NCBI GenBank assembly: GCA_011525625.1 | Contig: WYAX01000008.1 | Location: forward strand, 1 to 64,000 | Direction: 5' to 3' | From: Nitrospira defluvii | GTDB lineage: Bacteria > Nitrospirota > Nitrospiria > Nitrospirales > Nitrospiraceae | DNA: 64,000 bases | Shown here: positions 28,581 to 38,880 of the stretch, piece by piece | Position numbering within the stretch: position 1 is the stretch's first letter | How the letters are laid out: the number at the start of each line of letters is the position of its first letter | Made by a program: the position numbers and the translations under genes | Notes under the pieces: model-generated | Seen by the model: the letters and a program-made list of their open reading frames with translations, nothing else | Database searches by the model: none | What the model was told of the DNA's origin: nothing

Positions 28581-29450
28581 TCAATTACCCGAGGAGGCCG
28601 TCCGGAGTGATGAGGCCAATCCCAATTTTGACAGGGTGTAGATAAGCCACTTCGACGGATCGAAGTTGTACCAGAGCGGGCCGTTGCGGTAATCGCTCGG
28701 GTACGTGTGGTGGTAGTTGTGATAACCCTCGCCGAACGTGAGCAGGGAGACGAGCCAGGAGTTGCGGCTCGAATCGGCTGTCCCATACGGTTGATCGCCC
28801 CAGATGTGACAGACGGAATTGATGCAGAATGTGGAATTCAGCACGGCAAAGGTACGCCCGACCCCTGCCAGCATGAATCCGCCGATCCCTCCCTGCCAGC
28901 CGTTATGGAGAAAACCGACGACAAAGGGCAGTGCCAGGCCGATCAGGACGATGGTTGCGTAGTTCCGGTGTTGCCACATGGCGACTGGGTCCTGCATTAC
29001 GCGAGAACCGAAGCGCTCGTCATTGCAAGGAACAGGGTTCAGCAACCATCCGCAGTGGCTATACCAGAATCCTCGTTTGGCGTTGTAGGGATCTTGCGGG
29101 TCGTCGCAATGGGCGTGATGGCGTAAGTGATCGGCGGTCCATTTGGCGCCGGAGTTCTGCAAGGCCCATCCACCGGCGATCAAGAGGCAGGCTTTAACCC
29201 AGTCTGGACATTCGAAACTACGATGAGTCAACAGCCGGTGGTACCCGACTGTGATCCCGAGTCCGGTGACCACATAGAGCACGGCGAACATGGTCCAATC
29301 CAGCCACGAATAGCCGTACAGCAGTCCGTAACCCGGGACGGCAATGACGGAACCGGCTACGACCGACCAGAAGAGCAGGTAGGTCCAGAATTTATGATGA
29401 ACCCGGTGGACAATGTGGGCTGGAATGGGGTTCGGGGACGCCTGTTGCAT
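28581..29450 (-). CDS. Acyl-lipid / acyl-CoA delta-9-type desaturase
   Basis: A 289-aa integral membrane di-iron desaturase. The three histidine boxes are HRLLTH (~residue 71), HLRHHAH (~residue 108) and HNYHH (~residue 243), plus a conserved His in the C-terminal half (HIWGDQPYG). About four hydrophobic segments fit two membrane hairpins. It introduces a cis double bond in saturated acyl chains and adjusts membrane fluidity. It lies upstream of the RRM gene on the same strand, but with about 310 bases between, so separate transcription is likely. The ATG at 29450 has only a weak ribosome-binding site. Confidence 0.9.
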   Translation of the reverse strand: MQQASPNPIPAHIVHRVHHKFWTYLLFWSVVAGSVIAVPGYGLLYGYSWLDWTMFAVLYVVTGLGITVGYHRLLTHRSFECPDWVKACLLIAGGWALQNSGAKWTADHLRHHAHCDDPQDPYNAKRGFWYSHCGWLLNPVPCNDERFGSRVMQDPVAMWQHRNYATIVLIGLALPFVVGFLHNGWQGGIGGFMLAGVGRTFAVLNSTFCINSVCHIWGDQPYGTADSSRNSWLVSLLTFGEGYHNYHHTYPSDYRNGPLWYNFDPSKWLIYTLSKLGLASSLRTASSGN

Positions 29451-29688: not shown

Positions 29689-30042
29689 ATGGAATGCGAG
29701 AAACAAGGAACATGCAGGTTGGTGGTGCTCGTGTGCAGCGTCGTGCTTGGGATCGTGGGGACATGCGGGGTCGCCTGGTCGGCCGGCGATGCGGCTGTCC
29801 CGTCTGTACAAGATGCGCCGTCGGTATCCTCCGCGCCATCCGATGCAAACGGGGCGAAAGTTGAAGGCCGGAGGCGGGGTGGTCGTCCGGGGCGGAAAGC
29901 CTGCGCCGAGGATGTGAAGCGACTGTGTGCTAACGTCAAGCCGGGAGAGGGGAGAATCGCCCAGTGCTTGAGGGCCCATACGCAGGATCTGTCCCCCGCG
30001 TGCGCAGAAAGCGTGCAACAACGAAGCAAGCGCCGGCCATAG
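29689..30042 (+). CDS. Exported protein with one cysteine-rich repeat (GLG1-like)
   Basis: A 117-aa protein with a signal peptide (VVLVCSVVLGIVGTCGVAWSAG). After a low-complexity linker, residues ~72-110 match the cysteine-rich repeat known from the eukaryotic Golgi protein GLG1 and many bacterial periplasmic proteins: CAEDVKRLCANVKPGEGRIAQCLRAH, then LSPAC. Four cysteines could form two disulfides. The function in bacteria is unknown. A second protein with the same kind of repeat is encoded at 56001-56606. Confidence 0.75.
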   Translation: MECEKQGTCRLVVLVCSVVLGIVGTCGVAWSAGDAAVPSVQDAPSVSSAPSDANGAKVEGRRRGGRPGRKACAEDVKRLCANVKPGEGRIAQCLRAHTQDLSPACAESVQQRSKRRP

Positions 30043-30206
30043 GCGTGTGGACGTGTCGAGGCGCGGATTGGTCACGTAGACGATCCGTGTCTGCGTGACC
30101 GTCTCACGGTTCGTGTGTCCCATGGCCGTCGGTCGATTTCGTCAATTTATTTTCGGAACCCCGTCCCGTGCGATAGAGTGACCGCTGGACATACGGGAGG
30201 GTACGT

Positions 30207-30587
30207 ATGAGTGGCACTACGGGGCAGGAACAGTTCTCCGTCGACTTGCGTCAGCATCCCAGATTGCGCGTGCCGGCGCCATTTGTCTGCTCGTTGTCGC
30301 GCTTGGGCCTGGCCAAATGGCTCGGTCGCGGCGGCGATGGTATCGGTGTGGTGTTTGACGTGTCGATGAGGGGTGCCAAGGTCATGAGCGAGGCGGGGAT
30401 TCAGCGGGGGGATAGGCTCTCGGTCAGTCTGTCCCTGCCGAATCAAGTGTCGCCGATGACGGTTGAGGAAGCTACCGTGCGGTGGGAGCGGGAGCAGGTG
30501 TACGGATTGGAGTTCGTCAATCTGTCGTCGGTGGCCGAGATGCGGCTGCGGAAGTTTATCACGCTCGCAACGAAGCCCACCTCCTAG
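30207..30587 (+). CDS. PilZ-domain protein (first of three)
   Basis: A 126-aa single-domain PilZ protein. Both parts of the c-di-GMP-binding signature are present: RxxxR in RQHPRLRV (~residue 15) and DxSxxG in DVSMRGAKV (~residue 50). The C-terminal part (VRWEREQVYGLEFVNLS) completes the barrel. It probably binds cyclic di-GMP. It starts with ATG 30207 after GGGAGGGTACGT. It heads a co-directional run with an LpxL-like acyltransferase, two more PilZ proteins and the Mla genes. Confidence 0.9.
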   Translation: MSGTTGQEQFSVDLRQHPRLRVPAPFVCSLSRLGLAKWLGRGGDGIGVVFDVSMRGAKVMSEAGIQRGDRLSVSLSLPNQVSPMTVEEATVRWEREQVYGLEFVNLSSVAEMRLRKFITLATKPTS

Positions 30588-30744
30588 CGCCACTGCGTGG
30601 CTGCCGTCTCTGATCACGCGCGTACCGGTGGGCTTGGTTGGAGCGGCTCCTCGTTCAATCGCGTTCACCGTGTCCCCGTCTCACAGCCTCCTTCGAGATT
30701 GCGCTCGCCGCGCCGTTTCCCTACAATGGCCTCCCCATTCGGCC

Positions 30745-31683
30745 ATGTCTAGGACACTGACCCCACATACTCGGCGCCAGCCGCGCAGTCCCTACCACCC
30801 CATGTATTGGCCTACCTGGGTCGGCATTGCTCTGTTTCGTCTGCTGTCCTGGCTTCCCTATCGGTCACAACTGGCGTTCGGACGGCAGTGCGGCCGGCTG
30901 CTGCACGGTCTGCTCACCAAGCGACGGGAGATCGTGCGGGTCAACCTGAAACTCTGTTTCCCCGGACAGACGCAGGATGAACGGAACGCGGTGGCGTTGC
31001 ATTGTTTCGAGTCCATGGGAATGGGAGTATTGGAAATTGCAATGGCCTGGTGGGCAAAGGACCCTCGGGAGCATTGCGAATGTACGATCAAAGGGTTGGA
31101 CCATCTCCGGGAGGCGCTCCAGGCCGGGCGAGGTGTTTTGCTCTGCGGGGCACATTTACATTCGGCCGAACTGGCCGGCCGGTTTATGGCCTTGGAGCAG
31201 CCGGTCGCCATCGTGTATCGACCCCAAAACGATATCGTGGCGGACATGATCGCCAATCGCTGCCGGAGCCGGTACTATTCAGACCTGATTCAACACCGTG
31301 ATATGCGGGGCATCCTCCGCGCGTTGGCGAGAAATCAGGTGGTCTGGTACGCCCCGGACATCGACGCGGGTACCAAGCGCAGTGTCTTTGCGCCATTCTT
31401 CGGGGTGCCGGCCGCATCATTGACTGCCACCTCCAGACTGGCCAAGGTCAGTGGCGCGGCGGTGGTTCCCTGTTTCTACTATCGACGAGCCGATGGGTCC
31501 GGGTATGACATCGAAGTCGGGCAGGCCCTCAATCAGTTTCCGTCAGGAGAAATGATCGAGGATGCCACACGGATCAATCGCTTGATCGAAGACGCCGTTC
31601 GTCGGGTGCCGGAGCAATATTTCTGGCAACATCGCCGCTTCAAGAGTCGTCCTCCCGGTGAACCGCCGCTCTACAGGCGGTAG
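30745..31683 (+). CDS. LpxL/HtrB-family lysophospholipid acyltransferase
   Basis: About 312 aa. One N-terminal membrane anchor (YWPTWVGIALFRLLSWLP) and the lipid A acyltransferase pattern: VRVNLKLCFPG, GRGVLLCGAHLHSAELAG with the catalytic H-x4-E, VYRPQND, PDIDAG and FFGVPAAS. It likely adds a secondary acyl chain to lipid A or a related lipid at the inner membrane. The usual HFGNWE-type active site reads HLHSAE, a variant. The start is uncertain: ATG 30745 or the internal ATG at about 30802. It lies between two PilZ genes, suggesting c-di-GMP-linked lipid modification. Confidence 0.85.
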   Translation: MSRTLTPHTRRQPRSPYHPMYWPTWVGIALFRLLSWLPYRSQLAFGRQCGRLLHGLLTKRREIVRVNLKLCFPGQTQDERNAVALHCFESMGMGVLEIAMAWWAKDPREHCECTIKGLDHLREALQAGRGVLLCGAHLHSAELAGRFMALEQPVAIVYRPQNDIVADMIANRCRSRYYSDLIQHRDMRGILRALARNQVVWYAPDIDAGTKRSVFAPFFGVPAASLTATSRLAKVSGAAVVPCFYYRRADGSGYDIEVGQALNQFPSGEMIEDATRINRLIEDAVRRVPEQYFWQHRRFKSRPPGEPPLYRR

Positions 31684-31827
31684 GGAGTGCCGCAGAGCCC
31701 GACTGAGCTGCAGCGAGGCTCACCGGCGAGACGCCGGTGGATTCTCGCGAAGTACTCGGCGACGGCTCCCTTCTGCGATATACTGACCCTGCTGCGTCAT
31801 ACAGGCGTTCGCATCATCCGTTCCGTT

Positions 31828-32208
31828 ATGGATCAATTCAGCAAGCGTCCCCCCGCTCAAAAGGAGCTGCGTCAGCATCAACGGCGTCTCGCGCCGCCCG
31901 GGTGTCTGCTGTCCTTCGCACCGTTTGCCCCGACCGTCAGTTTTAACGGCGACGTAGAAGGGGAGGGCATGATTCTTAATCTCTCGCCAGGTGGCTGCAA
32001 AATCAGCAGCGACGTGGGCGTGAAGGTGGGGGATGCGATGTCACTCATTCTCCTGTTGCCTGGAGAGTCGTCTCCCACGTCGGTGGATCTGGCGTTGGTG
32101 CGTTGGGGCGGTGAGGCCTGTTTCGGTGTGGAGTTCGTCTCCATGGGAACGGTCGAGCAGGCTCGCTTACGGCAGTTCGTGGCAGTCGCTCCAGTCGGGG
32201 GCTCCTAG
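31828..32208 (+). CDS. PilZ-domain protein (second of three)
   Basis: A 126-aa protein. RxxxR is present in RQHQRRLAPP (~residue 16) and NxSxxG in NLSPGGCKI (~residue 53), so c-di-GMP binding is expected. The middle region (FNGDVEGEG) differs from the other two copies, so this is not a recent duplicate. The ATG at 31828 is preferred over the longer frame from 31687. Only 34 bases separate it from the third PilZ gene. Confidence 0.85.
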   Translation: MDQFSKRPPAQKELRQHQRRLAPPGCLLSFAPFAPTVSFNGDVEGEGMILNLSPGGCKISSDVGVKVGDAMSLILLLPGESSPTSVDLALVRWGGEACFGVEFVSMGTVEQARLRQFVAVAPVGGS

Positions 32209-32242
32209 GCCACAGGAGTCGGCAGTGAGAGGGGAGGGGTAC

Positions 32243-32575
32243 GTGGAACAGACGAACACGCTGCGCAAGTCTCGTCGGGTCGCTACCGATTGTCGCCTGG
32301 AGTTTCTCGGAGAGGATGAGGTCGACGGGGATGCGGAAATGCTCGATGTCTCTTCCACCGGATGTATGGCACGATCGGAGCGGACCATGCCTCCGGGTTT
32401 TCGCATGCGGGTCTCCCTGTTCCTCGCGGACGGTCTGGACTGGCCGGTCCGTGTGGACGAGGCGGTGGTCCGATGGGCGCGGGGAGGCGAGTTCGGAATC
32501 GAGTTTCTGGTCATGCGACCTCCGCAACTCCAGCGTATTCAGCAGTTTGTCATCAAGCATCGGCCGGTCTCGTAG
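32243..32575 (+). CDS. PilZ-domain protein (third of three)
   Basis: A 110-aa protein starting at GTG 32243 with GGGGAGGGG just upstream. RxxxR in RKSRRVATD (~residue 8) and DxSxxG in DVSSTGCMA (~residue 38) are intact. It is followed by an alternating strand pattern and ends in a helix (PPQLQRIQQFVIKH) as in the other copies. It is in the same run as the acyltransferase and Mla genes; 213 bases separate it from mlaE, so a separate promoter there is possible. Confidence 0.85.
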   Translation: MEQTNTLRKSRRVATDCRLEFLGEDEVDGDAEMLDVSSTGCMARSERTMPPGFRMRVSLFLADGLDWPVRVDEAVVRWARGGEFGIEFLVMRPPQLQRIQQFVIKHRPVS

Positions 32576-32788
32576 TCTTTCACTGAGCCGTTCGGCATCC
32601 TCCTTCCTTGTACCGAGAAGGTCCGGCTCAGGTCCTCGCTCCCATATCTCATCTCTCCGCCTCATGACGCCTGCCGGGGCCGGCCTCGTTGCTTTACGGG
32701 TAATGCTTCCCTACAATTTCGCCGTGACGCAAGGTGCGGAAGCAACGGCTTGGTGCATGCTGCCGCGTGGGGAGGCGCCGCACATCCG

Positions 32789-33568
32789 ATGATCGAGTGG
32801 GTAGGACGGAAGACCGTCGCCGGATATGCCTACCTGGCGGCGTTGGCCACACTTTTCATACAAGCGGTGTTGGATCTGATATCCCCGGCGCGACAGGGGC
32901 GGCGGGAAACGTTGCGAGTGTTGATCCGTCAAATTCTCTTCACGGGTGTCGACGCGCTGCCCGTCACCAGCGTCATTGCGCTCTTGCTCGGCATCATCAT
33001 TGTGACGCAGGCCGGGACGCAGCTTCCCAAGCTCGGGGCCGGCGGACTGGTGGGCAGCATCATCGTGGTCACGGTGATTCGGGAGCTCGGTCCCCTGATC
33101 ACCGCCTTCATCGTCGTGGGGCGATCGGGCACGGCCATCGCGACCGAACTGGGCAACATGTCGGTGACGCGGGAAGTGGTCGCGCTCCGACTCATGGGAA
33201 TTCCCATCAGCCAATTTGTCATTATGCCTCGTATGGTCGGCATGGTGCTCTCGATGTTGTGCCTGACCTTCTACTTTGACGTGGTGGCGGTGTTCGGCGG
33301 GTACCTGGTCGCCGATGCGCAACTGACCATTCCTTTTTCCGCATTTGTCGACAGTGTCACTCGGGCGTTGTCGACCACCGACCTGCTCATGACGGCGATC
33401 AAGGGACTCGGGTTCGGATCGGCCGTCGCGGCGGTCTGTTGTTACCATGGCCTGGCGGTGCGGTCTTCCTATACGGAAGTGCCGCAACAGACGACCCGAG
33501 CAGTAATCAATTCGTTCGTGCTGTGTCTGCTGGTGGATGTCGTCGTGACGGTGCCGCTCTACTTATGA
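32789..33568 (+). CDS. mlaE: MlaE-type ABC transporter permease
   Basis: A 259-aa membrane protein with about five helices. The conserved MlaE core is visible (VTSVIALLLGIIIVTQAGTQLPKLGA, then VIRELGPLITAFIVVGRSGTAIATELGNMSVTREV and ALRLMGI), including the E-x-x-x-M region that contacts the ATPase. It forms the membrane core of the MlaFED phospholipid transporter. The start is ATG 32789 or GTG 32750. Its stop overlaps the mlaF start by four bases. Confidence 0.93.
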   Translation: MIEWVGRKTVAGYAYLAALATLFIQAVLDLISPARQGRRETLRVLIRQILFTGVDALPVTSVIALLLGIIIVTQAGTQLPKLGAGGLVGSIIVVTVIRELGPLITAFIVVGRSGTAIATELGNMSVTREVVALRLMGIPISQFVIMPRMVGMVLSMLCLTFYFDVVAVFGGYLVADAQLTIPFSAFVDSVTRALSTTDLLMTAIKGLGFGSAVAAVCCYHGLAVRSSYTEVPQQTTRAVINSFVLCLLVDVVVTVPLYL

Positions 33569-34296
33569 GCGAAACAGCGATCAGCTTTGTGCAGGTTCGA
33601 GCGCCTCTCGCCGGGAGCACGTCCTGCTTGCATCTGGACCTTCGCATCGCGGCGGGACAGTTCGTTGCGCTGGTCGGGCCGAGCCGCTCGGGGAAAAGCC
33701 TGGCCATCGAGTTGGCGGCAGGGCTGTTGCCGCCGCAATCCGGGAAGGTGATGGTCTTAGGACAGGATTGGAGTGCTCTTGAGGAAGCAGGCGACGGCTC
33801 GATGCGACTCCGGGTGGGGACCGTGCTGCAACAGCCGGGGTTGCTGAGCAACATGACCCTCTTCAACAACGTGCTCCTCCCGCTGCGGTATCATCGCGGG
33901 GCGATGCCGGATCCTCAGCGAGAGCAGGCGGCGATGGCGCAGTTGGAACGATTGGGATTGGCCTCGTTACGGGACCGCTTTCCCGCGGAGCTCAATCACG
34001 GGGAGATTCGCCGAGGCGCCATTGCGCGGTCGTTGATGTTAGAGCCGGACGTCCTGCTGTTGGACGATCCCGTGGCAGGCTTGGATGCGGACATGGTGTT
34101 GGTCCTGAAACAGTATGTCGACGCGCGACGGCAGCAGCAGCCCTTGACGGTGGTGGCGGCGTTGCGTTCGTTTTCGCCTTTCATCGAAGGCGCGGATCGA
34201 CTGATCGTCTTGCAGGACGGGCGGGTGGAGGCCGACGGCAGTGTGGAGTCGGTGGGCCGGACGGTCCCTCCTGCGTTACGACGATATGCGGGGTAG
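33565..34296 (+). CDS. mlaF: MlaF-like ABC ATPase with degenerate catalytic motifs
   Basis: A 243-aa ABC ATPase. Walker A is intact (GPSRSGKS) and the Q-loop glutamine is present (VLQQPGLLSN). The signature motif reads LNHGE instead of LSGGQ. Walker B reads LLLDDPVAGLD, so the catalytic Glu is Asp. The H-loop position reads VAALRSFSPF with no histidine. These changes predict very weak or no ATP hydrolysis by this subunit, unusual for a transporter with an otherwise normal MlaE and MlaD. It overlaps mlaE by four bases. Confidence 0.88.
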   Translation: MSETAISFVQVRAPLAGSTSCLHLDLRIAAGQFVALVGPSRSGKSLAIELAAGLLPPQSGKVMVLGQDWSALEEAGDGSMRLRVGTVLQQPGLLSNMTLFNNVLLPLRYHRGAMPDPQREQAAMAQLERLGLASLRDRFPAELNHGEIRRGAIARSLMLEPDVLLLDDPVAGLDADMVLVLKQYVDARRQQQPLTVVAALRSFSPFIEGADRLIVLQDGRVEADGSVESVGRTVPPALRRYAG

Positions 34297-34340
34297 GCGG
34301 CTTCGGATCACGTTGTGGTCGCCGGGTCAAAGAGGAGCGC

Positions 34341-35330
34341 ATGCATTATTCACATCGGCTGTCGAGCGGGCGACTGGCACAGATTGTCGGGACCTTTGTG
34401 GTGATCCCCCTGCTGATCCTGGCCGGGGCGGGGTTTTGGATGTCGCGGGCTGAACATCTCTTTGAGCCGAAGTATTCGCTCAAGGCCAGTCTCAGCAAAT
34501 CCTATGGTCTGGAGCCTGGAGCGCCGGTGGTGGTCTCGGGCATTTCGATCGGGCGGGTCAAGCGGGTGGATTTGAACGATCGCGGAACCGTCGATGTGAT
34601 GCTGCAGGTGTTGACGCGATACCAGAATATGGTGAAGGACAATTCGGAATTACGGATCACGAAGAGCGGTGTCGTGGTAGGGCAGACGCAAGTCGACATC
34701 GGAATGGGAACGGCCGGTAGCCCGGCGTTATCCGATGGCGCGACGATTCGAGCGGTGGAACCGAGGGACATCGGCGATCTGCTCAACGAGGTCGAGCCGG
34801 TGTTGATGGCGGTCAAGCAGACGTTGCTTCGGGTGGAAACGATCACGCAGGATGTGCAGGGCGGGCTCAAAGCCGGCGGGAAGGCCCTTGAGCAGGTGGC
34901 CGCGGCGACGCAGGATTTGCCCTCGGTGGTGGCATCGGTTCAGCGGACGATTGCCTCGGTCGAGCAAACGGCGACCGCACTGCCGACCATGACCGGCTCA
35001 ATCACGCGAACCTTGAGCGTGGTGGATCGAGTGACCGCGGACGTGCAGCAGGCCACCGGCCGTCTACCGGCTATCTTGAATAGTGCCGAATCCACCCTGG
35101 CAAGCGTGAAGCGCCTCTCGGATTCCGTGGATGAGGTGAGCCAGGAATTAATCCCTGTCATTCGGACGGCCGAAGGCACCTTGACCGATGTCTCGACTCT
35201 GGTACGAGGCGCGAAGCAGACGTTTCCCTTCAACCGGTTTGCGCAGAACGCCGGGCCGCCACCGAAGGACTCGCCGATGCGGTCCCAGCCGGGAACTCAG
35301 AGCTTGAGAGGAGATCAACTGCGTCGATGA
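34341..35330 (+). CDS. mlaD: MlaD-family MCE-domain phospholipid-binding protein
   Basis: A 329-aa protein with one N-terminal membrane anchor (IVGTFVVIPLLILAGAGFWM), an MCE domain (~residues 45-125; SYGLEPGAPVVVSGISIGRVKRVDL, LRITKSGVVVGQTQVDI) and a long helical, coiled-coil-like C-terminal region (~145-300). It forms the periplasmic ring above MlaE. It begins 44 bases after mlaF, and its stop overlaps the next gene's ATG by four bases. Confidence 0.92.
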   Translation: MHYSHRLSSGRLAQIVGTFVVIPLLILAGAGFWMSRAEHLFEPKYSLKASLSKSYGLEPGAPVVVSGISIGRVKRVDLNDRGTVDVMLQVLTRYQNMVKDNSELRITKSGVVVGQTQVDIGMGTAGSPALSDGATIRAVEPRDIGDLLNEVEPVLMAVKQTLLRVETITQDVQGGLKAGGKALEQVAAATQDLPSVVASVQRTIASVEQTATALPTMTGSITRTLSVVDRVTADVQQATGRLPAILNSAESTLASVKRLSDSVDEVSQELIPVIRTAEGTLTDVSTLVRGAKQTFPFNRFAQNAGPPPKDSPMRSQPGTQSLRGDQLRR

Positions 35331-36286
35331 AGTCCCGACGAGTAGGGTTCCACGCAGGCATGAGCGTTCTGGCGCTCTGCGCGTTGCTGGGATGTGCGAC
35401 TGCTCAGCCACCCGCGCCTCTGGAACCTCAGCCTGGTCTATGGGCGACACAGGGTGAGTCTCTGCGGCGGCAGGGCGATCGTTGGTTGACACGGGGGGAT
35501 CCCGCCCGTGCAGCGGAGGCGTATGAGGCGGCGCGTCGCGTGGCGGAAAGTCTCGACGACAGAAGAACCCTCGTCGGCACGCTGAATGATATCGGTCGTG
35601 TGGCTCTCGGGCGTGGGGACTCGACTCTCGCGATCACCTCGCATGGGCGGGCGGTTACCCTGGCCCGGGAACTGGGCGCGTCAGACCTCTTACTCGAGAG
35701 CCTGACGGCGTTGGGGACGGCAACGCATGAGGCCGGACAGACCGAGGAGGCCGAGCCGCTCTATCAGGAGGCGCTGGACTTGGCTCAACAGAAGGCGGAT
35801 CAAGCGGCGGAGGCGACGCTGCGGAACAACCTGGGTCTGCTGCGACAGGCGAAGGGAGACCTTGAGCAGGCTGCCCTGCAGTTCCGTCACGCCATGGCGT
35901 TGAATCAGGCTGCCGGCAACCTTCCCTCCGAAGCGAGCAACCACGTGAACCTGGGCATGGTCGCCGAGGCACGCCAGGCCTACGATGTGGCCGAGCAGGA
36001 GTTCGAACGGGCGCTGGAGCTAGACAAAGTCGCGGAACATCGGACCGGGATTGCCGCAGACCTCTCGCGGTTGGGACGGGTAGCCGACCGCCGGGGATTT
36101 CCCGATCGCGGCCTCGCTTTGTTTGAGCGTGCCTACCGCAGCTATCTAGCGCAGGGTGATCGGGGCGGCGCCGTGGCCGCTCTGACTCAGGCCGTGGCCT
36201 GCGCGAAGAAGTTGGGCCGAGATGCAGATGTCGCGCGATTAGGGCAGGCACTGAGCCGACTGTCCGTGCCTGCTTCTGCGAGGTAG
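35327..36286 (+). CDS. TPR-repeat lipoprotein of the Mla operon
   Basis: A 319-aa protein. The signal peptide ends in a lipobox (VLALCALLGC, ~residue 23). The mature part is made of about five tetratricopeptide repeats (GDRWLTRGDPARAAEAYEAA, LRNNLGLLRQAKGDLEQAAL, NHVNLGMVAEARQAYDVAE). Coupling to mlaD by an ATGA overlap suggests it acts with the transporter, perhaps as an outer-membrane docking lipoprotein in place of MlaA, which is absent here. Confidence 0.85.
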   Translation: MKSRRVGFHAGMSVLALCALLGCATAQPPAPLEPQPGLWATQGESLRRQGDRWLTRGDPARAAEAYEAARRVAESLDDRRTLVGTLNDIGRVALGRGDSTLAITSHGRAVTLARELGASDLLLESLTALGTATHEAGQTEEAEPLYQEALDLAQQKADQAAEATLRNNLGLLRQAKGDLEQAALQFRHAMALNQAAGNLPSEASNHVNLGMVAEARQAYDVAEQEFERALELDKVAEHRTGIAADLSRLGRVADRRGFPDRGLALFERAYRSYLAQGDRGGAVAALTQAVACAKKLGRDADVARLGQALSRLSVPASAR

Positions 36287-36313: not shown

Positions 36314-38626
36314 CTACTTGATGGCGACGGCCTTGACCTCCTTGTAGGTCGTGTGCCCCTGCAGCACCTTCTGAATGCCGTCCTGCACCAGCGTAGTCAT
36401 CCCGTCGTCCATGGCGGCTTTGAGCATTTCATCGGTCTTGGCTTTGTTCTGGATCAACTTTTTCATGTGATCCGTGCCCAGCAACAACTCGTGCAGCGCC
36501 ACGCGGCCTTTCAGGCCGGTCCGGTTGCAGGTATCACACCCCTTCCCCCGATAGAGTCGAAAGTTGGCATCGAAGGGGACCTTCAGGGTGTCCCAATAAT
36601 CCGGACCATACCCCAGCCGCAATTCCTCATATTCTTCCTTGGACGGTTGATACGCTTCCTTGCAATCTTTACAGATGCGTCGCGCCAACCGCTGGGCCAG
36701 TACGCCCAGCATGGCGTCGGCAAAACTGAAGGAGTCGCAGCCCATGTCCAACAGACGAGTAATAGTTTCCACCGCGCTGTTCGTGTGCAACGTGCTGAGC
36801 ACCAAGTGGCCTGTCAGCGAGGCTTCGATGCCGGTATCCGCCGTTTCTTTATCCCGCATTTCTCCGACCATAATCACGTCCGGGTCGGCGCGGAGGAAGG
36901 CGCGCATGGCCGCCGCGAAGGTAAATCCGATTTTAGAATGGACCTGTACCTGGCGCAGTCCGTATTGCGTGATTTCGACCGGGTCTTCCGCCGTCCAGAT
37001 TTTGATGTCCGGAGTGTTGATGTACCCGAGCACGGAGTGCAGCGTGGTGGTTTTTCCGGATCCGGTCGGTCCGACGCAGAGAATGATGCCGTAGGGTTTT
37101 TCGGCGATACTCTTAATTTCACGCAGGTTTCGATCCGAGAAGCCCATCTTATCGACCGGCAACGGTTCGCTCGCGGCCAGAATACGCATGACGACGTCTT
37201 CGTTGTAGCCGGCGGTCGGGATGGTGGCGACGCGCAGCTCGATTTCCTTGTTCTCACCGATCTTGAATTTGATTTTCCCGTCCTGGGGCTTCCGGCGTTC
37301 CGCGATGTCGAGGCTGGCCATGATCTTCAGTCGCGAGACGATGGCGCGGCGATAACTCGGCGGAATTTTCATGTACTCGAAGCAGTCGCCGTCGACTCGG
37401 AACCGCACGAGGGTATCGCGTTTTTCTCCATAGGGCTCGATATGAATATCTGACGTCCCTTGCCGGAAGGCATCGGCGATGATCTGGTTGGCGAGACGCA
37501 CGATGGCGTTGTCGTTCTCATCGAGTCCTGCGCTGGATGCTTCCTCCTGCGCTTCCAGCTGGGACTCGCTGACCAACTCGCCGAGAATGTCGGAGACATT
37601 CTCGTTCATTTTGTTGCTGACCTCGGGACCGCCGGTGGTGCTCGTGAGAAAGAGGGCGATGTCGCGGCGCAGACTGACGGCGAAGCGGATATTGAGGCCA
37701 GGGAAGGTGCGCTTGATGTCCTGGACGCGATCCAAATCGCCGGGATCGTCGGTCAGAATCTCGATTGCGGCCCGGTCCCGCTTCAGGGGCATCCAGTGAT
37801 TTTTCTTCAGGTAGTCGACGTTGAGGTTCTTAAGGAGTTCGATGTCGACGATGGTCCGTTCGTTGTACTCGATGTAGGGGCATTTGTGGAAATTGGCGAG
37901 CGATTTACCGATTTCGGCTTTCGGTACCTTATATTTCTCAATCAGGAGCGATTCGATGTCCGTCGTGCCCTTCTTCGCTTCGTTGAGGGCGACATCCAGA
38001 TCTTGTTGTGAAATCTTGCCGTTGGTCAGCAGGTAATCGAATTTCGACGGCGGCTTCTTGGAGGTTTTGCGTAAGGTGTGAAATGCCGTGCCCAGGGCCT
38101 TGGCGATTTCCGCGACACACTCCTCGTCCTTGCGGGTGAATCGTCCGCCGCTTTTCTTGTTGAGGAGCTGGATGACGCCCATGAGATATTTGTTCTCGGC
38201 CACGACGGGATAGGTGAGGACCTGTTTGGTTTTGAACCCCGTGTTCTTGTCGTAGGTGGCGTCATGGGTCAGCGCAGGGTGAATCGTGGCAAGCTCCGGC
38301 AGGCTATAGGCGTCACCGACATTGACCGGGCGGAGGTATTTGGCGCAGAACCCCGGAAGACTTTGTTCCGTAATCGGTGTGCGGACTTCCTGGACCGTAT
38401 CGAGGTGGGGAATTTTGGAAAAGATTTCCTTTTTTTCAGAGTCCACGACGAAGAGCGTGAGGTCTTCCGCGTCAAAACAGCCGAGAATGTCGTGGCGGAG
38501 ATCCAGGAGGATTTGATCGATGTCTGCGGCGGCGAGAATCTGTGCGCTGATTCGCTTGACGTTTTCGGCGTTGCCGGCCTTGAGCGTGGTCTCACTGACA
38601 CCAGGCAGCGGAGCTTTGGGCTGCAT
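36314..38626 (-). CDS. GAF-domain GspE/PilB-family secretion ATPase
   Basis: A 770-aa protein. Residues ~20-190 form a GAF domain (LILLDLRHDILGCFDAEDLTLFVVD-like segment, VVAENKYLMGVIQLLNK). Residues ~195-320 resemble the MshEN/T2SSE N-domain (YLLTNGKISQQDLDVAL), which in relatives can bind c-di-GMP. The T2SSE ATPase core (~390-760) has Walker A GPTGSGKTTTLH, Asp box, Walker B VIMVGEMRD, His box (LSTLHTN) and the tetracysteine zinc motif (CKDC, CDTC). It may drive a type II or type IV pilus-like machine, but no pseudopilin or pilus genes are adjacent. ATG 38626 has GGAGAG upstream. Confidence 0.9.
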   Translation of the reverse strand: MQPKAPLPGVSETTLKAGNAENVKRISAQILAAADIDQILLDLRHDILGCFDAEDLTLFVVDSEKKEIFSKIPHLDTVQEVRTPITEQSLPGFCAKYLRPVNVGDAYSLPELATIHPALTHDATYDKNTGFKTKQVLTYPVVAENKYLMGVIQLLNKKSGGRFTRKDEECVAEIAKALGTAFHTLRKTSKKPPSKFDYLLTNGKISQQDLDVALNEAKKGTTDIESLLIEKYKVPKAEIGKSLANFHKCPYIEYNERTIVDIELLKNLNVDYLKKNHWMPLKRDRAAIEILTDDPGDLDRVQDIKRTFPGLNIRFAVSLRRDIALFLTSTTGGPEVSNKMNENVSDILGELVSESQLEAQEEASSAGLDENDNAIVRLANQIIADAFRQGTSDIHIEPYGEKRDTLVRFRVDGDCFEYMKIPPSYRRAIVSRLKIMASLDIAERRKPQDGKIKFKIGENKEIELRVATIPTAGYNEDVVMRILAASEPLPVDKMGFSDRNLREIKSIAEKPYGIILCVGPTGSGKTTTLHSVLGYINTPDIKIWTAEDPVEITQYGLRQVQVHSKIGFTFAAAMRAFLRADPDVIMVGEMRDKETADTGIEASLTGHLVLSTLHTNSAVETITRLLDMGCDSFSFADAMLGVLAQRLARRICKDCKEAYQPSKEEYEELRLGYGPDYWDTLKVPFDANFRLYRGKGCDTCNRTGLKGRVALHELLLGTDHMKKLIQNKAKTDEMLKAAMDDGMTTLVQDGIQKVLQGHTTYKEVKAVAIK

Positions 38627-38880
38627 CAAGTTCTCTCCAAACAGGCTGAACGGGGAGCTACGCGTGGTGTCGGAATCGCACTCCTGAATCGGGAACCTGC
38701 TCCTGGCACGAGTTCCTGGCCGGGCTTCTTCCTTGTGTGTCAGTGTATCGCAACAGCGGGTCAAGGCAAGCAAAAGGCATTTTCTCAAACCTGTCTGCGG
38801 AGGCTCGGCTTCGCCGGTCAGGCCGAGACGTGCTGGGGGAGAGGGCCGTGAGGGTGGTGACGCGTGGGAGAGCGGAACAG

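Follow-up and report, generated by a model that had tools for sequence, protein, structure and literature searches.

A genus-wide neighborhood of PilZ, LpxL-type and Mla-type genes in Nitrospira, probably formed of separate transcription units

The stretch of the Nitrospira defluvii genome considered here (the window: 64,000 nucleotides, positions 1 to 64,000 of contig WYAX01000008.1, whose coordinates are used for all upstream and downstream positions) carries eight co-directional genes, in which three PilZ genes surround a gene for an LpxL-type lipid A acyltransferase and are followed by genes for an Mla-type lipid transporter and a lipoprotein. This gene neighborhood is genuine and is conserved across the genus Nitrospira. 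It is probably a lineage-specific assembly of four transcription units, in which the PilZ proteins act as independent receptors for cyclic di-GMP (c-di-GMP) that partner neither LpxL nor the Mla transporter. Separate units would thus have become neighbors, rather than forming one signal-controlled lipid machine. The genes are as follows:

30207..30587, + strand: PilZ1, a single-domain PilZ protein (Pfam, 41.2 bits; RxxxR and DxSxxG motifs)
30745..31683, + strand, ATG start: LpxL/LpxP-type lipid A late acyltransferase (TIGR02207, PF03279)
31828..32208, + strand: PilZ2 (Pfam, 35.9 bits; trees)
32243..32575, + strand, GTG start: PilZ3 (Pfam, 38.2 bits; without a promoter of its own)
32789..33568, + strand: MlaE-family permease (PF02405, 214.8 bits)
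33565..34296, + strand: MlaF-like ABC ATPase (Pfam ABC_tran; model fold that of Escherichia coli MlaF)
34341..35330, + strand: MlaD/MCE-domain protein (PF02470, 51.8 bits)
35327..36286, + strand: TPR lipoprotein, the last gene of the Mla operon (Pfam TPR; lipobox LLGC)

The gene calls, strand, order and coordinates of all eight genes are as the initial annotation had placed them. Pfam matches (PilZ cut-off 22.5 bits), motifs and coordinates also agree with its description of three PilZ proteins with intact RxxxR and D/NxSxxG motifs, co-directional with LpxL and flanking it, followed by MlaE, MlaF, MlaD and a TPR lipoprotein. It had further suggested looking for the same gene order in relatives, and there the order recurs. 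LpxL-PilZ2-PilZ3 is found in all 29 genomes of the genus (on two separate contigs in G006), PilZ1 stands before LpxL in 28 (the exception, G028, is a 66% complete bin), and Mla genes lie downstream in 27 (the exceptions being G012 and G016; in G002 the contig stops within mlaE). PilZ3 lies about 90–230 bases upstream of mlaE in all intact loci, and a PilB-like gene ends the cluster wherever the contig extends far enough. The recurrence of this order therefore puts the neighborhood beyond chance. At the G028 locus (L059), the genes for PilZ1, a Cys-rich protein and a desaturase are all absent upstream of LpxL, which is either a true change or a misjoined contig.

The Mla operon predates the genus and is old in the order: mlaEFD and the TPR gene occur in other genera and families, there without LpxL and without PilZ2 or PilZ3. 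In G030 a PilZ1 ortholog (59% identity) lies some 2.5 kb before mlaE, separated from it by unrelated genes. Full-length LpxL, on the other hand, occurs in the 29 genomes of the genus and in just two more from the order, with partial matches in some others. Judging by this distribution, LpxL and PilZ2/PilZ3 appear to have joined the locus at the root of the genus, inserted between PilZ1 and the Mla operon, which are both older. Such an insertion would have brought the genus an enzyme of late lipid A acylation that is missing from most of the order. (LpxK is near-universal in the order, at 57 of 61 genomes, whereas full-length LpxL is almost confined to the genus.) In a scan of 84,980 species genomes, LpxL matches outside Nitrospira were mostly from Gemmatimonadota (25–33%), with one from a gammaproteobacterium (38%); the search peptides bias this result, and no donor was identified.

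How is the run transcribed? The intergenic gaps, from PilZ1 to the TPR gene in order, are 157, 144, 34, 213, −4, 44 and −4 bases, and from these gaps one or two transcripts had been proposed. The footprinting argues otherwise. With each gap aligned across 23 to 29 genomes, short conserved blocks stand out amid otherwise unalignable gap DNA (best 12-base windows 0.90 to 0.98, versus gap means of 0.47 to 0.57), and four promoter-like blocks divide the run:

30125..30206, + strand: PilZ1 promoter-like region and conserved leader (footprint; TGCGATAGAGTG, or GATACAGTG in most genomes, and ATACGGGAGGGTACGT before the ATG)
30695..30728, + strand: lpxL conserved promoter (footprint; TTGCGC-N17-TACAAT, GATTGCGC-N17-TACAAT; top 12-base windows 0.98, 28 sequences)
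31749..31786, + strand: PilZ2-PilZ3 promoter-like element (footprint; GAAGTACTCGGCG ... TGCGATATACTG; conserved at about 0.9, 29 sequences)
32688..32722, + strand: mlaEFD-TPR conserved promoter (footprint; TTGCTT-N17-TACAAT here, N17 or N18 across genomes)

Footprinting found no conserved block in the PilZ2-PilZ3 and MlaF-MlaD gaps. The four sigma70-like blocks fit four units, which would be PilZ1, LpxL, PilZ2-PilZ3 and MlaEFD-TPR. A simple sigma70 scan of the region missed all four and returned one weak match, at the level of shuffled sequence; a search of Rfam gave no match inside the gene cluster. Two of the four blocks share a core. In the 4.6 Mb genome the pattern TTGC-N14-19-CCTACAAT has just two exact matches, one before lpxL (30699-30727) and one before mlaE (32689-32717), and across the 29 genomes it gives 94 matches, 49 of them at the lpxL and mlaE places and the rest scattered. 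The pattern was built from these two sites, and what is informative is its uniqueness in the genome, not the match. A similar site, TTGCGTTACCCGAATGGTTCACCTACAAT, lies upstream of mlaE in G030 (L069). The shared core could reflect either a promoter that was copied or a common regulator, and the lpxL and mlaE lipid units may be co-regulated or co-expressed.

The fate of the Mla operon within the genus bears on whether the PilZ proteins serve it. G012 (L065) retains no more than remnants of mlaE and the TPR gene, and G016 (L063) has less still, with PilZ1-LpxL-PilZ2-PilZ3 remaining in both. In the LpxL tree, G012 groups with G028 (support 0.95) and then with G014 (0.94), both of which have an intact operon, and G016 stands apart. 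Since the two do not group and intact relatives lie between them, two independent losses are the simplest reading. The PilZ genes did not go with the transporter: PilZ3 is still constrained in both G012 and G016, and PilZ2 in G012. The ratio of nonsynonymous to synonymous substitution rates (dN/dS) of PilZ3 is 0.08–0.12 in pairs that include an Mla loser, versus 0.07 between intact relatives, and that of PilZ2 is 0.14 in G012, equal to the 0.14 between intact relatives; PilZ2 of G016 is frameshifted, either truly or by an assembly error. G029, from another genus (one contig, 99% complete), lacks orthologs both of this Mla operon and of LpxL, and in it a tandem pair of PilZ1-type genes (L230, 1372-2221) abuts, convergently, an ortholog of the same PilB-like gene.

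Control of the MlaEFD transporter by c-di-GMP through the PilZ proteins is thus highly improbable, because both losses left the constraint on PilZ3 (and in G012 on PilZ2) unchanged and because the G029 pair exists with neither LpxL nor this Mla operon. The short distance from PilZ3 to mlaE in intact loci, together with the nearness of PilZ1 to Mla in G030, would fit such control, but in other genera and families mlaEFD-TPR is present where PilZ1-3 are not, and mlaE has its own, older promoter. The initial annotation had proposed a c-di-GMP-controlled lipid module; its gene order has stood, but a shared transcript is not supported and coupling of PilZ to Mla is unlikely.

LpxL is a different matter. 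The protein scores 319.6 bits against the NCBIfam model TIGR02207 (LpxL/LpxP; cut-off 297.8), aligns over a long stretch with the solved lipid A acyltransferase 5kn7, and has the catalytic HX4(D/E) motif in the form HLHSAE, in which only the S position varies in the genus. It is the sole PF03279 match in the genome, in which LpxK is also found (the upstream lipid A pathway was judged on LpxK alone). In family score, motif, structural alignment and the presence of LpxK it resembles the LpxL/LpxP late acyltransferases, from which it differs in having PilZ genes on both sides and in having a close ortholog, within the order, only in the genus. Its most likely activity would be the addition of a secondary acyl chain to Kdo2-lipid IVA. 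One might suppose that c-di-GMP-bound PilZ1, PilZ2 or PilZ3 binds LpxL and alters lipid A acylation, perhaps on a switch to surface growth, with Mla a mere neighbor. Such control would fit the linkage of LpxL to PilZ2-PilZ3 in every genome of the genus, with PilZ1 in front in all but one and the arrangement retained after Mla loss, as well as the restriction of both LpxL and PilZ2/3 at this locus to the genus and the intact c-di-GMP motifs. However, PilZ1, LpxL and PilZ2-PilZ3 each have a separate promoter, PilZ1-type genes occur without LpxL in G029 and G030, and none of the 59 LpxL loci outside Nitrospira has an adjacent PilZ gene. None of the papers listed for PilZ together with lipid A and an acyltransferase was relevant, and no paper in the literature library searched joins PilZ, LpxL and c-di-GMP. 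Such an interaction is judged unlikely though conceivable, the genes being never separated within the genus.

If neither lipid system is the partner, what do the PilZ proteins do? PilZ1 (RQHPR and DVSMRG), PilZ2 (RQHQR and NLSPGG) and PilZ3 (RKSRR and DVSSTG) keep RxxxR and (D/N)xSxxG throughout the genus, with substitutions falling between the fixed positions, and all three are predicted c-di-GMP receptors. They resemble known single-domain PilZ receptors in these motifs and in matching PF07238 above the cut-off, and differ in being one of many PilZ groups in their genome. There are 30 PilZ domain matches in the whole genome, including other pairs or triples beside other kinds of genes (for example C3:24906-25671, C11:27480-28383 and C2:74572-75289), so that three PilZ genes together are unremarkable by themselves, and it is the conservation that counts. 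PilZ1 and PilZ2 form sister clades in the PilZ tree (support 0.86), with PilZ3 separate, and the G029 pair and the G030 gene group with PilZ1. Of the proteins in the cluster, PilZ1 shows the strongest constraint in most comparisons (dN/dS 0.00–0.07 in most pairs, 0.14 in one).

The genes next to the run come into view at this point, in particular the one that it meets downstream:

28581..29450, − strand: fatty acid desaturase, a divergent neighbor kept in most of the genus (PF00487; Pfam, synteny)
29689..30042, + strand: small secreted Cys-rich repeat protein, the upstream neighbor (PF00839; Pfam, synteny)
36314..38638, − strand: PilB/GspE-type ATPase with T2SSE and MshEN domains, the convergent neighbor (Pfam)

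(Farther off, positions 1-458 of the window hold the last part of a 23S rRNA gene, along with a 5S rRNA gene.) The PilZ proteins would most likely be free-standing receptors, and the PilB-like ATPase is the best candidate for a partner among the neighbors. PilZ1 and PilZ2 could act on this ATPase, tuning a type IV pilus or type II secretion, with the lipid genes as inserts. The PilZ1-type pair of G029 abuts the PilB-like gene with neither LpxL nor Mla present, and the genus cluster ends at that gene. The score of the MshE-related c-di-GMP motif in the PilB-like protein, 20.5, falls short of the cut-off of 38, which also counts in favor of PilZ action, and there is a precedent in the Xanthomonas PilZ that acts on PilB (PMC8389850). 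A sequence search of solved structures gave no PilZ match for PilZ1; the weak fold matches of its model (best E 2e-3 in the PDB), taken as a hint only, are headed by pilus PilZ structures, PilB-PilZ complexes among them. That model, however, is poor (predicted local distance difference test score, pLDDT, 63.8), the PilZ and PilB-like genes are convergent and form no operon, and G033 and G032 have a PilB ortholog without an adjacent PilZ gene. Compared with the PilB-PilZ-FimX system of type IV pili, the likeness lies in the genes, namely PilZ genes near a PilB-like ATPase with a weak-looking MshEN motif, but the Xanthomonas PilZ proteins known from PilB-PilZ complexes do not bind c-di-GMP (PMC8389850), whereas PilZ1-3 retain the motifs for doing so. 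This reading, with the lipid genes as inserts beside a PilZ-controlled ATPase, is rated as unlikely.

The preferred explanation, of four separate units with free-standing receptors, has observations to reckon with as well. The linkage of PilZ2-PilZ3 to LpxL is unbroken in 29 genomes, which could be a sign of function, and PilZ1 and Mla lie near each other in G030 too. The PilZ2 frameshift of G016, coming with Mla loss, may mean that the two decayed together, or it may be an assembly error, and the promoter-like blocks leave room for read-through between units.

A feature that the initial annotation had not reported concerns the transporter itself, whose MlaF lacks the signature consensus, the catalytic Glu and the H-loop His. 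LNHGE stands where the LSGG signature is expected, the Walker B region reads LLLDDP, and the H-loop region reads VVAALRSF. All 26 genus copies retain Walker A and the Q-loop (LEQPG in two); their signature reads LNQGE, LNHGE, LSHGE or LHQGE, their Walker B invariably ends in Asp-Asp, with Asp in place of the catalytic Glu, and not one copy has the H-loop His. G030 MlaF has the same altered pattern, and the orthologs examined in other genera and families of the order all lack the H-loop His, with some retaining the Glu. Two MlaF paralogs in the same genome are canonical (LSGGM, DEP and THD or SHE). The protein is clearly under purifying selection (dN/dS 0.15–0.23, above that of MlaE), and its AlphaFold model (pLDDT 91.7) best matches E. 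coli MlaF (TMq 0.89). The operon resembles E. coli MlaFEDB in this respect and in holding MlaE, MlaF and MlaD together. It differs in the replaced MlaF residues, in its terminal TPR lipoprotein, and in having no MlaB (STAS) gene, none being found between 32789 and 36286. MlaE and MlaD have the permease (PF02405) and MCE (PF02470) domains of an Mla transporter, but score below the NCBIfam Mla equivalog cut-offs.

Does this MlaF still hydrolyze ATP? In some degenerate ABC sites, Asp can stand in for Glu. Loss of hydrolysis is nevertheless plausible, if unproven, because the Walker A and Walker B mutants K47A and E170Q of E. coli MlaF do not complement (PMC7367683). It may tentatively be suggested, as a possibility rather than an expectation, that the operon encodes a selected MCE/Mla-type transporter whose ATPase has lost normal hydrolysis; transport would then depend on ATP binding only, be slow or passive, or draw on a canonical MlaF paralog encoded elsewhere in the genome. 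The transporter would be expected to move lipids between membranes, and a conserved transporter with a natural Glu-to-Asp change in Walker B and no H-loop His would need a different energy scheme.

If c-di-GMP did act on lipid A acylation or on lipid transport, biofilm signaling would be tied to the make-up of the outer membrane. On the comparative evidence, the Mla half of this idea is unlikely; the LpxL half stays a clear test case.

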